The notes under the pieces: generated by a model
Told to the model about the DNA's origin: nothing
Databases searched by the model: none
What the model saw: the letters and a program-made list of their open reading frames with translations, nothing else
Made by a program: the position numbers and the translations under genes
Shown: one piece after another, positions 1-4,103 of the stretch
How positions within the stretch are numbered: the first letter of the stretch is position 1
Layout: the number at the start of each line of letters is the position of its first letter
Origin: Nitrososphaerota archaeon
GTDB taxonomy: Archaea; Thermoproteota; Nitrososphaeria; Nitrososphaerales; CADDZS01
Reading direction: 5' to 3'
NCBI GenBank assembly: GCA_027886785.1
Contig: JAPCJV010000163.1
Span: forward strand, 1 to 5,330
Length of the DNA stretch: 5,330 nucleotides

Positions 1-483
1 CAAAGCAACGTGCGAGCTCAGCCCTGTCCACGTACCGAAGAACTTGGTGGGTTGCAAATTGGCGACGCCAGTGGATTCCTCCAGATCGCCGATGAACTCT
101 TGGGAAAGAGAAGGATCAATTGCGTTCGCAGAAACGACGTCTGCATTTTTCTTGATTTGAGAGATCGCTTCAACGCTTTTTTTCCTGACTAAGATCTGTT
201 CTAGGCTCTTCACTTGATTTTCAAAGATCATGCTTCCCAAGGGGGTGTGTTTGTACTCGCCTTCATTTTTGAAAACGAGTCCCAGGTCAACGAGTTCTTT
301 CAGTCTTCCGTAGTACCTCTTTTTCGTGAATTGGTGTTTTTCCAGTACGCTTGTTGAAGCGTCTATTCCTTCCGCTGCGAGATTAAAGATCCTGAGAGAA
401 TCAGTATTGGAAAGAGCGGAATGAATGTCCCTGACTTTAGCTTGAACTTCGTGGGAACTAGGTGGAGTACTATCCTGTGACAT
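1..483 (-). CDS. Partial winged-helix transcriptional regulator (N-terminal part; continues past left edge)
   Basis: Reading the minus strand from the ATG at 483-481 gives 161 codons without a stop, running off the window edge, so the C-terminus is missing. Residues about 27-80 have the layout of a winged helix-turn-helix: helices around SLRIFNLAAEGID and SVLEKHQFTKKRYYGRLKEL (recognition-helix-like), then LVDLGLVFKNEGEYKHTPLG, a typical wing hairpin followed by the TPLG turn seen in archaeal wHTH proteins. From about residue 85 an amphipathic helix (SLEQILVRKKSVEAISQIKK) leads to a second domain that I do not recognise. No enzyme motif is visible. The gene is divergent from the REase-like gene at 622, with a TATA-like box about 28 bp before its ATG, suggesting a nearly leaderless mRNA. 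The regulator call rests on fold-like pattern only; its targets and ligand are unknown. Confidence 0.75.
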   Translation of the reverse strand, partial: MSQDSTPPSSHEVQAKVRDIHSALSNTDSLRIFNLAAEGIDASTSVLEKHQFTKKRYYGRLKELVDLGLVFKNEGEYKHTPLGSMIFENQVKSLEQILVRKKSVEAISQIKKNADVVSANAIDPSLSQEFIGDLEESTGVANLQPTKFFGTWTGLSSHVAL

Positions 484-492
484 AGTTCCCAC
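451..492. repeat. Perfect 10-bp inverted repeat across the regulator start codon
   Basis: GTGGGAACTA at 451-460 is the exact reverse complement of TAGTTCCCAC at 483-492, with 22 bp between them. The right arm ends at the start codon (483-481) of the left-edge winged-helix gene, close to the predicted transcription start. It could be an operator for autoregulation, or a 5' mRNA hairpin if transcription starts upstream of 492. A 10-bp match at this spacing is uncommon but could occur by chance in a window of this length. Confidence 0.4.
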
Positions 493-506
493 AAATGGAG
501 ATGCGA

Positions 507-516
507 ATGTATATGC
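507..516 (-). promoter_or_regulatory. TATA-like promoter element for the left-edge regulator
   Basis: On the minus strand this reads GCATATACAT, an A/T-rich box whose centre lies about 28 bp upstream of the ATG at 483. With the archaeal spacing of about 25 bp from TATA centre to transcription start, initiation would fall within a few bases of the start codon, so the mRNA is probably leaderless. No Shine-Dalgarno motif is seen before this ATG, which fits. Confidence 0.45.
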
Positions 517-572
517 AGTTTCACCATTTACAGAAAAACTAAACGCCCCGATTCTTGTATTCGGAATTCATA

Positions 573-581
573 GTTTAATAT
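573..581 (+). promoter_or_regulatory. TATA-like promoter element for the REase-like gene
   Basis: The sequence GTTTAATAT resembles an archaeal TATA box. Its centre is about 45 bp before the ATG at 622, predicting transcription start near 602 and a leader of about 20 nt, enough to carry the Shine-Dalgarno motif at 609-614. The mutual fit of box, leader and ribosome site supports the assignment. Confidence 0.5.
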
Positions 582-608
582 GACAACTATCCATTGCTTT
601 CTTTAGAC

Positions 609-614
609 AGGTGA
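609..614 (+). promoter_or_regulatory. Shine-Dalgarno site AGGTGA
   Basis: AGGTGA is complementary to the anti-Shine-Dalgarno end of 16S rRNA and ends 7 bases before the ATG at 622. It is the clearest ribosome binding site in the window and fixes the start of the following gene. Confidence 0.65.
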
Positions 615-621
615 ACAGAGA

Positions 622-1110
622 ATGGCGAGTTCAACTCCCGGCATTTCGGGCGAAATACTGAATTTACTCGACAATAGCTCGCCTTCCGATATACACGGAC
701 TGGAGGTATTGCGGATCAAGGAATTGTTGGAAGGATTTGGCTATGTCTGCAAGCCCAATGGTAAGCTGAGGGGGATCAGCGGTAATGTTCATGACTTTGA
801 TTTTGTTTGTACTAAGTTAGACACCGGTGAAAAAATGGTCCTCGATTCGATGATTACATCAGGGGACAATGAAGAAATGCTGGATGTCGAGATGGTCAAG
901 CTGCGACTCAAAACGTACGACTGTAGCCCGGACTCTTGCATCGTGATAGCCTCGCGCGTCAGTCCCTCGTTGAAACAGATGGCGATCCTGTACAGGATTT
1001 CGCTTATTGAAGCAAGCAGTGAAAGCAGTCCTTACGACCGACTGGAATCGCTTCTCAGGTTGCGCGACGCTGAATCCACCCGGAAAAACCCGCTGAGCGA
1101 TCTAGCCTAA
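622..1110 (+). CDS. Restriction-endonuclease-like fold protein, archaeal type (putative)
   Basis: A 162-residue soluble protein with an ATG start supported by AGGTGA 7 bases upstream. After a variable N-terminus, a helix (about 26-40) ending in LEGFGY leads into the signature GISGNVHDFD at 51-60 (G51, G54, H57, D60), then a strand with D75 (MVLDSM) and a long helix containing VEMVKLRLKTYD. The final strand-helix-strand SCIVIASRVSPSLKQMAILYRISLIE (106-130) has the 'predict value, then residue position, then cell-like I/E ending' layout of PD-(D/E)XK-fold proteins. From memory, this GxSGxxHxFD arrangement recurs in archaeal proteins annotated as restriction-endonuclease-like. I cannot see a clean ExK pair after D75, so catalytic activity is uncertain and a binding or structural role is possible. 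Its stop codon overlaps that of the convergent gene at 1107, next to a Cas4-like nuclease. Function is inferred, not shown. Confidence 0.8.
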   Translation: MASSTPGISGEILNLLDNSSPSDIHGLEVLRIKELLEGFGYVCKPNGKLRGISGNVHDFDFVCTKLDTGEKMVLDSMITSGDNEEMLDVEMVKLRLKTYDCSPDSCIVIASRVSPSLKQMAILYRISLIEASSESSPYDRLESLLRLRDAESTRKNPLSDLA

Positions 1111-1379
1111 GGACTTTCTTGCTTCAGATTCCGTAGGGCAGTCGCCACCCCGTTATCGAAAGCTGCTAACTCTCTAAAAGTACCCAACTTCTGCGCAAAA
1201 TATTCGTCCGCATCATCATAGAGAGCTTTCAAAAGAGAAGCTCTAATCGCCCAGCGTTCGATTTTTGCGTCAGTCAGAATCTTCATTAATTCACTGACCT
1301 TGGAGTTAGCCTCGTCCAGATCTTTTTGAGGAACTCCGTCCAGGGATAAGTTTCTCAAAGTATCTAGAATGCTGGCCAA
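1107..1379 (-). CDS. Small helical protein of unknown function, downstream of Cas4-HAD
   Basis: A 90-residue protein that I do not recognise. It is predicted almost entirely helical. Residues 20-40 (KDLDEANSKVSELMKILTDA) have heptad-like hydrophobic spacing and could form a short coiled coil, followed by a second helix around IERWAIRASLLKALYDDADEYFAQKL. There are no cysteines, no signal peptide and no membrane segment. The only in-frame start before the first ATG (codon 32) is the TTG at 1379, 20 bp after the Cas4-HAD stop, without an obvious Shine-Dalgarno, so the start is uncertain. Tight spacing suggests cotranscription with the nuclease fusion and possibly a partner role. Its TAG stop overlaps the TAA of the convergent gene at 622-1110. 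Confidence 0.65.
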   Translation of the reverse strand: MASILDTLRNLSLDGVPQKDLDEANSKVSELMKILTDAKIERWAIRASLLKALYDDADEYFAQKLGTFRELAAFDNGVATALRNLKQESP

Positions 1380-1399
1380 AGTACTAGATAAAACAAATT

Positions 1400-2716
1400 C
1401 TAAGCGCCACTTGACGTCTGCTTAGATCTTTTAACTTGAGCACCTTTCATAATCAAGGAGCTGGTTACTGCATCGCGGTCGAAGATTTCCACAACGTCGT
1501 AATTTACGCCCAAGCGAGACGCCCACCGCGTTTTGAATCGCCCGTCGGAATCATAATTCCCAGGCTCCCGCAAGATCAATTGAAAAATGGGTACGCCTAA
1601 ATTTGCGAGCCGTGCCCGCGTTGCTTCAAGAAGGCTGTCGCGCCTCGAAGAAGAAATTCCGATTGGCACCCGTCCAATTTTAACCTGGTCGTAAAGCTTC
1701 TCTTTGGCCAGAGGGATCAATACATCATATTCTATGTACTTAGGGCTGTCCAGCAATTCCCAGTACTTTTTCTTCGTTTGTTCATCATCAATATCTGATG
1801 GTCTGCTCGATGGCGGGAGGCCCAGTTCTTGGAGTATGACTCGCTTCTTTTCGGAAGTGTCTAGTATAATACTCTCTAAATCGAAAAGGGCGATCTTCGA
1901 ACCCGGTGTGATCGAATCAATCAGATAGGGGTTGCACGTTTCGATGTACGCGCACCGTTCGCACTGTTGATAGTCTCTGATCGTTGAAGCCTCTTTTTGT
2001 GGTAATCCTCCTGTCTTGAGGGCTTCGTGGAGTTCGAAGACCCGTTCTCTTAGGACGGTGCGCATTACATCGTCTTTTACGATGGTGAAACACTTGACCT
2101 TCCCCTCTCTCTTTGCCCAGTACAATAAAACTCCTAGGGGATAGTCCTGAGCTAGAAGGTAGGTGGACAGCTGGTAATAGTGTGACGCCCTAGGCTCGTC
2201 TGGTAAGCTCGAGGTGCTTTTTATTTCTAAAGGTACGAAGAGCCGGAATTTATCACCCGCCTTTTCGATTCTAATCAGGAGGAGATCGTCTATTCTTCCG
2301 TGGAGCTTTGCCTCCTCGCTGAACTCAAGATCGACGGCGACTTCGCTTCCTTCAACGGAGATCAATCCAGATCTGCGCAGGGCAAAAGCGATCAATTCAT
2401 GAATCGCTTTCCCTTCTGCGAAAATAGCAAGCTCTTCAGGAGTGGGAGGCTGCGGGGATAAGTACGAATAAGCCTGAGCTCTAAGGCATTTTTCAATCAT
2501 GCTTGGGTAGTACGATCCTAACCTGAACTTGTGATTTGCAGATTCTGCTTCCCACTCCGTATGCATTCCACTTTTTAGAGCATCTTCTATGGTGGAGGCG
2601 ATTGCCATCGGATCCGACAAAATCGTCGAAACCCATTTTTCGAATTTTTCTTTCTCGGCACTCGTCAATTCCATTGGGGATTCGGTCTTGTCGTGCAAAT
2701 AGTTGTCCAGTGACAA
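1400..2716 (-). CDS. Cas4-like iron-sulfur PD-(D/E)XK nuclease fused to a HAD-like domain
   Basis: A 438-residue two-domain protein. Residues about 65-265 carry the full Cas4/RecB-nuclease set: C77, the His motif EGKAIHE (H106), GRIDD (D143), PLEIKS (E164, K166), QLSTY (Q182, Y186), and a C-terminal cysteine group CERCAYIETC (C252, C255, C261). The four cysteines are the Cas4/AddB-type [4Fe-4S] ligands, and the acidic residues with Lys form a metal-dependent DNA exonuclease site. Residues 274-430 resemble a HAD domain: motif I FDLE (D279, with Glu at 281 instead of Asp), motif II near SSS 355-357, K395, and IFDRD at 411-415. HAD members include the DNA 3'-phosphatases of polynucleotide kinases, so end processing is conceivable. 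The TTG start at 2716 has GGAG 10 bases upstream and lies 22 bp after the zinc-finger gene; an ATG at 2674 (codon 15) is the alternative. No other cas gene is present, so a repair or defence role outside CRISPR is more likely than spacer acquisition. Confidence 0.9.
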   Translation of the reverse strand: MSLDNYLHDKTESPMELTSAEKEKFEKWVSTILSDPMAIASTIEDALKSGMHTEWEAESANHKFRLGSYYPSMIEKCLRAQAYSYLSPQPPTPEELAIFAEGKAIHELIAFALRRSGLISVEGSEVAVDLEFSEEAKLHGRIDDLLLIRIEKAGDKFRLFVPLEIKSTSSLPDEPRASHYYQLSTYLLAQDYPLGVLLYWAKREGKVKCFTIVKDDVMRTVLRERVFELHEALKTGGLPQKEASTIRDYQQCERCAYIETCNPYLIDSITPGSKIALFDLESIILDTSEKKRVILQELGLPPSSRPSDIDDEQTKKKYWELLDSPKYIEYDVLIPLAKEKLYDQVKIGRVPIGISSSRRDSLLEATRARLANLGVPIFQLILREPGNYDSDGRFKTRWASRLGVNYDVVEIFDRDAVTSSLIMKGAQVKRSKQTSSGA

Positions 2717-2909: not shown

Positions 2910-4103
2910 TTATGGCTTGCCAAATTCCAGGGCGAGTTTTGCAAGCGAGATCGACCCAAATTTTAGCACGTCCTCGTCCACTTTGAATTTGGAGCTGTGG
3001 TTTGGGTGTATACATCCCTTTTTTTCGTTTCTCGTACCTAGGTAGTAGAAAGTTCCGGGTGCCTTTTTGAGAAACCTGGAGAAATCCTCAGCACCCAGTT
3101 TGACATCGATCTCGTGGGTTTTCGTACCCTTTATCGTCTTCAGAATTTCAAACACTTTTTCGGTTGCTTTTTCGTCGTTGTACGTGACCGGGTATGCATC
3201 TTCCTTGAAACTCAACTCGTACTTTGCGCCGAACGCATCACATACAGCTTTAGTTATTTGAGAAACACTCTTTTTTGCAAGGGCTCTCGTCTTATCATTC
3301 ATAGTCCTAATCGTTCCCAGCAAAAGGGCATCGTCCGGAATCACATTATCCTTGGTACCTGCGTGAATGCTGCAGACCGAGACAACGAACGGTTCCACGG
3401 GATTGACAATGCGGCTGGAAATACCCTGAAGGGCGACGATTAGTTCTGCCGAAACGAAGATGGGATCAATGGTTTCATGAGGCCTCGATCCATGACCTCC
3501 CTTTCCGATTATTCTGATCTTGAACGCATTCGGGGCCGCCATGAACGGGCCCGGGCGGACTCCAAAAGTTCCGGAAGGATATTCGCCGCCGATGTGCAGT
3601 CCAAAAACGTAATCGACTTTTGGATTTTCCATAACCCCTGCCTCGATCATCGGCTCCGCTCCGCCCCTTCCTCCATCCTCTTCGGCGGGCTGAAAAAAGA
3701 ACTTGACGATGCCTGAAAGATCTGACTTGTGGTTTGACAGAATCTCTGCCGCCCCCAAAAGCATGGCAACGTGCGTGTCGTGCCCGCAGGAATGCATGAC
3801 GCCGGGATTTATGGACTTGAAGGGGAGATCAACATCTTCCGTGACGGGTAATGCATCCATATCTGCCCTCAGACCTATGACCTTGCCATTTTTCTCGCCT
3901 TTGAGAATCCCCATTACTCCGGTGGTCCCGCCGATCTTCGTCTTGACCTCGATTCCCAGCTCTCTAAGTTTCTCGGCCACCAACTTCGCAGTTCTTTCTT
4001 CAGCATAGGAAAGCTCAGGATGGGCGTGAATGTCTCTCCTCAGGGCGAGGATCTTGGGCTCGATTCTCTTTGCCTCCGCCTCGAGGTCTAATTGCTCAAG
4101 CAA
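2910..4103 (-). CDS. M20 family metallo-amidohydrolase (N-acyl amino acid / carboxypeptidase-type)
   Basis: A cytoplasmic 397-residue enzyme, full length for the M20D branch (IAA-amino-acid hydrolase, hippurate hydrolase, archaeal CpsA-type carboxypeptidase). It hydrolyses the amide bond of N-acyl amino acids or small peptides using two metal ions. Family landmarks are in order: LRRDIHAHPELSY at 21-33, GLRADMDALPV at 78-87, MHSCGHDTHVAML at 103-115 (ligands C106 and H108), FQPAEEDGGRGG at 137-148 (E141 catalytic base and E142 ligand), GLHIG with H170, the dimerisation-domain motif GKGGHGSRPHE at 200-210, LGAEDFS at 337-342, and the C-terminal HPNHSSKF with H369. The exact substrate cannot be read from sequence. 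No signal peptide is present. The start is TTG at 4103; no ATG or GTG lies between it and the upstream stop, and a TATA-like box sits about 32 bp before it. It is the first gene of a four-gene minus-strand run and is probably functionally unrelated to the nuclease genes. Confidence 0.97.
   Translation of the reverse strand: MLEQLDLEAEAKRIEPKILALRRDIHAHPELSYAEERTAKLVAEKLRELGIEVKTKIGGTTGVMGILKGEKNGKVIGLRADMDALPVTEDVDLPFKSINPGVMHSCGHDTHVAMLLGAAEILSNHKSDLSGIVKFFFQPAEEDGGRGGAEPMIEAGVMENPKVDYVFGLHIGGEYPSGTFGVRPGPFMAAPNAFKIRIIGKGGHGSRPHETIDPIFVSAELIVALQGISSRIVNPVEPFVVSVCSIHAGTKDNVIPDDALLLGTIRTMNDKTRALAKKSVSQITKAVCDAFGAKYELSFKEDAYPVTYNDEKATEKVFEILKTIKGTKTHEIDVKLGAEDFSRFLKKAPGTFYYLGTRNEKKGCIHPNHSSKFKVDEDVLKFGSISLAKLALEFGKP

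Follow-up and report, generated by a model that had tools for sequence, protein, structure and literature searches.

Cas4 proteins cut single-stranded DNA, for which motifs II and III and the QhXXY motif are required, and their four cysteines bind Fe-S clusters (PMC4176176, in part). Solo Cas4 and Cas4-like proteins (PF12705 and PF01930), such as SSO0001 and Pcal_0546, share with the protein described here the RecB motif residues, QhXXY and the arrangement of one N-terminal and three C-terminal cysteines, and no cas genes were found beside the present gene either. However, the present protein is approximately twice as long, carries a C-terminal HAD domain and stays below the PF01930 and TIGR00372 cut-offs. 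Cas4-like domains joined to another DNA-processing domain have been reported as UvrD-Cas4 and Cas1-Cas4 fusions, but there the partner is a helicase or an integrase and not a phosphatase (PMC5704561, in part). The same phylogenomics survey calls for the characterisation of solo Cas4 proteins, and its main text contains none of the terms HAD, phosphatase, haloacid or Thaumarch- (PMC5704561).

The second half of the protein is best compared with T4 Pnkp and bacterial Pnkp1 (PF25109), with which it shares the HAD fold, the Asp of motif I, the Ser and Arg of motif II, most of the R246...D254...K258 stretch and the first Asp of motif IV. In T4 Pnkp, the residue numbers of which were confirmed on the T4 record, we take D165 to be the motif I nucleophile, S211 and R213 to form motif II, K258 motif III, and D277 and D278 motif IV. 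D279 of the present protein aligns with D165, and S356, R358, K395 and D413 align with S211, R213, K258 and D277, respectively. Unlike T4 Pnkp, the present protein has no kinase half and is fused to a nuclease, its motif I reads D-x-E with E281 at the D167 position, and its motif IV reads D-R-D instead of D-D, R414 falling into the D278 column and D415 one residue further. Between motifs I and II it also carries an insert absent from T4 Pnkp. This insert, together with a GD.RKD...K-like stretch, is shared with standalone archaeal HAD_PNKP proteins of 150-184 aa, the named members of which include Thermoprotei, Korarchaeota, Verstraetearchaeota and others. These proteins are, however, unfused, and in all 11 aligned rows motif I is DxD and motif IV is D-D or E-D.

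In the window, the whole stretch of 5,330 nucleotides analysed here, the two kinds of domain are encoded in a single open reading frame (Table 1). The sequence and the predicted structure show a Cas4/RecB-type nuclease and a Pnkp-type HAD domain in one chain, and with a probability of roughly 0.5 we read the product as a solo (non-CRISPR) archaeal protein for DNA end processing. An earlier note on this DNA had not recognised the combination as a described system, and indeed no description was found in literature titles and abstract openings, a coverage that leaves subscription journals mostly outside. The combination is already visible in databases, where automatic JGI names give both domains for P0046 and P0092. 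At the N-terminus, the family consensus starts with SLDN.LHD, and residues 1-5 and 7-12 have pLDDT below 50 in the predicted structure.

Table 1. Fusion gene, its predicted domains and the frame downstream of it (window positions).
Feature	Positions	Strand	Details
Cas4-like nuclease / Pnkp-type HAD fusion ORF	1400..2716	(-)	438 aa, TTG start, no internal stop
N-terminal helical region, residues 1-60	2537..2716	(-)	predicted helices 19-34 and 37-59
Cas4/RecB (PD-(D/E)XK) nuclease domain, residues 61-265	1922..2536	(-)	C77, H106, D143, E164-x-K166, Q182LSTY186, C252, C255, C261
HAD domain, Pnkp 3'-phosphatase type, residues 270-428	1433..1909	(-)	D279-x-E281, S356/R358, R383...D391...K395, D413-R-D415
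90-aa ORF, possible operon partner of the fusion	1107..1379	(-)	20 bases downstream, same strand

The first protein search gave 104 proteins including that of the window, the others being 54-90% identical to it, with Thaumarchaeota, Nitrososphaerota and Nitrososphaerales archaeon among their names. A second set of 38 proteins was obtained from the divergent fusion L017; a few of these are named Thaumarchaeota, Conexivisphaerales or Conexivisphaera. Group A denotes here the first set together with the window (104 rows, the window copy P0002 dropped), and group B the second set together with the loci L023 and L024 (40 rows). Both domains are covered in 136 of the 144 aligned rows, which is not an unbiased rate, because the searches were restricted to 0.55-1.75 times the query length and approximately 8000 candidates were scored. 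The eight remaining rows are P0101-P0105, P0130 and L024, of 228-317 aa, and P0142, of 346 aa.

No length restriction applied to the whole-genome search, in which up to four candidates were scored for each genome. At the order level, 14 of 201 genomes matched at E<=1e-5: the eight genomes with named loci, G024 with the divergent fusion, G035, and four in which only the Cas4 part matched, in frames of 215-263 aa. Each of the eight has one match, the copy in G006 being truncated where the HAD domain begins, at the end of its contig, and the match in G035 is a 48-aa contig-end piece that resembles the start of L017 and is not callable as a fusion. At the phylum level, a broader profile matched 25 of 398 genomes at E<=1e-25. 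Both domains lie in one chain in G003 and G452 only and are split over two contig ends in G386; judged by matched range, the rest have either the Cas4 or the HAD part alone. Within the limits of these samples, the fusion is a property of a few lineages of archaea, not of the phylum as a whole. No relatives of the fusion were found in viral contigs (a pattern scan for close relatives), plasmids or phage records. A solo Cas4 and a standalone HAD gene lie approximately 27 kb apart in G499, and the two were not seen adjoining each other in other archaea.

The Cas4 hallmarks that the earlier note had read in the N-terminal half, that is, the four cysteines, H106, D143, E164, K166 and QLSTY, are all in place (Table 1), and profile matches and conservation put them beyond a chance resemblance. 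The nuclease half matches PF12705 above the gathering cut-off (1.7e-6, 28.6 bits against 22, residues 121-262) and the NCBIfam Cas4 model TIGR00372 below its equivalog cut-off (7e-7, 29.2 against 65, residues 77-263), and PF01930 is below its curated cut-off (14.0 against 22.7). Every one of the 97 rows of at least 400 aa, a set that includes the window twice (P0001 and P0002), has all nine Cas4-type residues. Among group A rows with letters, H106 is kept in 101/101, D143 in 100/101, and E164, K166, Q182 and Y186 in 102/103 each, and the deviants at D143, E164, K166 and Q182 are two partial proteins, P0104 and P0105. In group B the RecB motif residues are all invariant wherever lettered. Homologues thus do not regularly lack the catalytic residues, a loss that the earlier note had named as evidence against its reading. 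C77, C252, C255 and C261, invariant wherever lettered in the 144 rows, are putative Fe-S staple cysteines, one N-terminal and three C-terminal.

The motifs claimed for the C-terminal half are likewise found in the same frame, with FDLE at 278-281, SSS at 355-357, K395, and IFDRD at 411-415. Searched on its own, the C-terminal half of the window protein hits no HAD model in Pfam, PF25109 included, and a PDB search with the window protein as a single sequence was empty, but the fold is found by the family profile, by related proteins and in the predicted structure. The failure to match a HAD fold, which the earlier note had named as refuting its reading, is thus not observed. In group B, PF25109 was matched at E<=0.01 by 14 of 38 members, at best with 2.8e-8; the match of the fusion L017 is below the cut-off and L023 gave none. 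All six standalone archaeal HAD relatives scanned pass the PF25109 cut-off (37.4 to 63.7 bits against 27.6), and for one of them 57 of 58 homologues carry PF25109 in precomputed annotation. On profile and modelled structure, the nearest solved relatives of the HAD domain are the phosphatase domains of Pnkp1 and T4 Pnkp. The only PDB sequence match below 1e-5 for the HAD part of the A2 profile is Pnkp1 of the Pnkp1/Rnl/Hen1 RNA repair complex (4e-7), and in a Foldseek search T4 Pnkp ranked 22, with several other HAD hydrolases above it (rank 13 with a first model of pLDDT 75.7, weak near residues 63-102, in place of which a second model was used).

These matches bear on the substrate of the HAD domain. 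It might be a phosphatase of small molecules, such as nucleotide or sugar phosphates, carried along by the fusion with no role at DNA ends. The members matched by generic HAD and acid-phosphatase models are as numerous as those matched by PF25109, or more so (among 58 A1 members at E<=1, PF00702 matches 16, PF03767 14 and PF25109 8), some members are automatically named phosphoglycolate phosphatase-like or YigB, and several such enzymes are among the Foldseek matches above T4 Pnkp. We nevertheless consider this improbable, given Pnkp1 as the single PDB match below 1e-5, the presence of most of the T4 Pnkp R246-to-K258 stretch and the fusion to a DNA nuclease, which is retained in groups A and B. 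The same Pnkp1 match, the best in PDB, could point instead to an enzyme of RNA repair or decay, the HAD domain of which would act on RNA end phosphates as in the Pnkp1/Rnl/Hen1 complex. A P-loop kinase, of a kind also found in Pnkp, is encoded approximately 4.6 kb from the fusion at L067:12238-12675 (-) (PF13671, 5.6e-21), but in this one genome alone; no RNA ligase or Hen1 was seen by eye among the listed neighbours of the fusions, and the nuclease half belongs to a DNA nuclease family, so that an RNA substrate appears quite unlikely.

Another fusion of the same HAD family is perhaps represented by the locus L026 (G425:C125), where a frame at 511-2010 (-) encodes 499 aa with an N-terminal Pnkp-like HAD domain (PF25109 2.9e-4, below the cut-off) and approximately 300 C-terminal residues.

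In phylogenetic trees, the roots of which were not inferred, the nuclease domains of the fusions group in a single clade, apart from 12 solo Cas4-like proteins (91/86, a support without a star), with a program warning of long branches in the solo set. A branch with support 100/98 separates the HAD domains of the fusions (61 rows) from 18 other HADs, namely 17 standalone proteins and the N-terminal part of L026, while some group B subclades join group A or the standalone side with weak support. A single clade of nucleases and a single side for the HADs are both explained by one fusion event.

The two halves have been kept to different degrees. Mean pairwise identity is 0.745 in the nuclease against 0.585 in the HAD domain for group A, and 0.565 against 0.322 for group B. 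The slower evolution of the nuclease in both groups marks it as the constant function. Among group A rows with letters, D279, R358 and K395 are present in 102/102, D415 in 101/102 and D413 in 98/102, and 18 of 102 have no Ser at the position equivalent to S211. The second motif I position, 281, is D in 90 and E in 12 of the 102 group A rows, the window among the latter, and D in 37 of the 40 rows of group B. Position 279 in group B, however, is E in 19 rows, G in eight, D in seven, S in five and T in one, and the nucleophile is thus gone in 33 of 40 with the nuclease intact. When D and not-D at this position are mapped onto the tree of the nuclease domains of 62 fusions, five changes or more are needed, a count that cannot separate gain from loss; loss is the simple reading, because D is found in 11 of 11 aligned standalone relatives. 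Phosphatase activity therefore cannot be the family-wide function.

Among the 152 HAD columns, the first ranks in the 33 nucleophile-less rows include D331 (rank 1, 30/30), K395 (rank 6, 31/33), R358 and D413 (both rank 8, 30/32 each), D281 (rank 10, 30/33) and T366 (rank 13, 27/33). The substituted nucleophile column ranks 47, and S356 (18/33, rank 50), R383 (17/33, rank 56) and D415 (10/32, rank 110) are less well kept. Much of the HAD pocket is therefore kept with or without the nucleophile. Three group B proteins, P0141, P0142 (which covers the HAD domain incompletely) and P0143, have a more eroded HAD domain with G-x-S or G-x-N in motif I, and their nuclease residues remain.

It could be argued that the HAD domain is chiefly a non-hydrolysing reader of phosphate, which brings DNA ends into place for the Cas4 nuclease or licenses them, with hydrolysis as a remnant in the clade of the window. 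The repeated change at position 279, the six pocket or nearby positions at ranks 1-13 and the DxE of the window copy agree with this. The full conservation of D279 in the window's clade, where the mean top-letter frequency of the HAD domain is 0.70, is hard to explain without catalysis, and the less well kept S356, R383 and D415 positions do not favour a reader either; we regard it as unlikely. A tentative view, possible but doubtful, is that of a family of single origin in which the Pnkp-type domain switched several times from a 3'-phosphatase to a dead end-phosphate reader gating the Cas4 nuclease, so that enzyme and sensor versions would exist side by side.

Returning to an end-processing protein with both domains, the nuclease, like characterised Cas4 proteins, would trim flaps or single-stranded ends, and the HAD pocket would bind the phosphate that a DNA end carries. 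For the window's clade, the invariance of D279 and of the pocket Arg and Lys makes removal of the 3'-phosphate probable, which would leave a 3'-OH for a polymerase or ligase. In several sister lineages, where the nucleophile is lost and much of the pocket kept, a role restricted to sensing the phosphate on the end, or to placing that end for the nuclease, is more likely. With the loss of the nucleophile in group B, and with DxE and Arg at the T4 Asp278 site in the window, the domain may be catalytic in the window's clade and a phosphate-binding sensor elsewhere. Of the earlier idea of a single-chain end-processing enzyme, the nuclease of Cas4 type, the fold of the HAD half and its relation to polynucleotide 3'-phosphatases thus stand, but two activities throughout the family do not. 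RecB-type nucleases leave 3'-OH ends, and a phosphatase is therefore not needed on the nuclease's own products. The protein would likely serve in repairing or recombining broken chromosomal DNA, not in CRISPR adaptation. The fusion looks like a new DNA-end tool of a soil-type archaeon and its relatives, and if this is true, a lineage of uncultivated archaea gains a candidate activity for cleaning DNA 3'-ends. A fixed partner domain is also a strong clue to the role of a solo Cas4, here pointing to phosphate-bearing DNA ends, and the members with DxD, DxE, ExD, SxD and GxD form a natural series for a change from enzyme to sensor.

The genomic setting is outside CRISPR loci, as claimed earlier. 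No CRISPR-like arrays were found in the window and 22 loci by a simple 20-mer spacing scan that detected a synthetic control array (some of the loci overlap, and L073 and L074 are without the fusion). None of the 75 neighbour ORFs at eight loci (at least 110 aa, within approximately 6 kb of the fusion) matched Cas adaptation or effector models of PADLOC at 1e-5; the matches obtained are to generic ATPases, oxidoreductase- and CARF/LolE-type models and Csa3 winged helices. Two UvrA proteins and one ABC-type ATPase account for the matches to mad3 and mad8 (3/75 each), which were set aside as a shared ATPase fold. With the neighbours at L068 and L069 read by eye only, no cas1, cas2 or array was found beside the fusion at the loci covered. 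Cas1 was matched in five of 11 fusion genomes, always on another contig than the fusion. A part in CRISPR adaptation or in an unlisted anti-viral system would fit the match of the nuclease half to several PADLOC Cas4 models, the defence or repair roles proposed for solo Cas4 genes (PMC5704561, in part) and weak matches of the regulator ORF at 1-492 to Csa3 (part of the model, 2.1e-5), CARF3 (6.5e-4) and PDC-S02 (5.5e-3). It is very improbable considering the missing arrays and Cas models near the gene, neighbours that differ between clades, phage and plasmid records without a match, and the lack of a Cas1 match in six of the 11 genomes, a weak absence in incomplete MAGs.

Repair genes occur near the fusion at several loci: uvrB, uvrA and uvrC at L065 (by Pfam, with the same order by eye at L069), an MGMT-like gene at L064, a LigD 3'-phosphoesterase and a methyladenine glycosylase at L066, and a Rad51/RadA-family gene and an HhH-GPD glycosylase, besides the P-loop kinase, at L067 (all by Pfam). 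These neighbours may hint at a repair role, but they differ between loci. No repair operon was seen by eye beside 12 standalone HAD genes. Gene order is conserved within close clades only and breaks down further away in the family, and the neighbourhood was consequently rejected as a clue to function.

Around the fusion, the window genes are all in the same order at L003, which carries a fusion orthologue also with a TTG start, and partly at L006. The 90-aa ORF has a homologue directly downstream of the fusion at L003 (59%) and L001 (46%; L063 is the same contig); no Pfam family was found for it, and the other loci that were searched gave no homologue; of these loci, L006/L067 breaks off within the fusion gene. 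Convergent with it, a 162-aa ORF at 622-1110 (+) contains a 'GISGN.H.FDF' stretch that recalls restriction-type nucleases, as an impression only; nothing was above the Pfam cut-off, and among the loci searched it has a homologue at L003 only (59%). Rfam and tRNA scans of the window gave no match. Between positions 1050 and 2900, three promoter-like sites against a shuffled mean of 1.5 and no terminators were found with a bacterial consensus, which is of little use for an archaeon. The ORF at 1-492 (-) is a winged-helix regulator (HVO_A0261_N 0.0031, below the cut-off), and its L003 orthologue has 324 aa. An M20 carboxypeptidase CpsA is encoded at 2910-4103 (-) (NF040868, 3.2e-188), and in the window as well as at L003 and L006 its gene is located upstream of the fusion.
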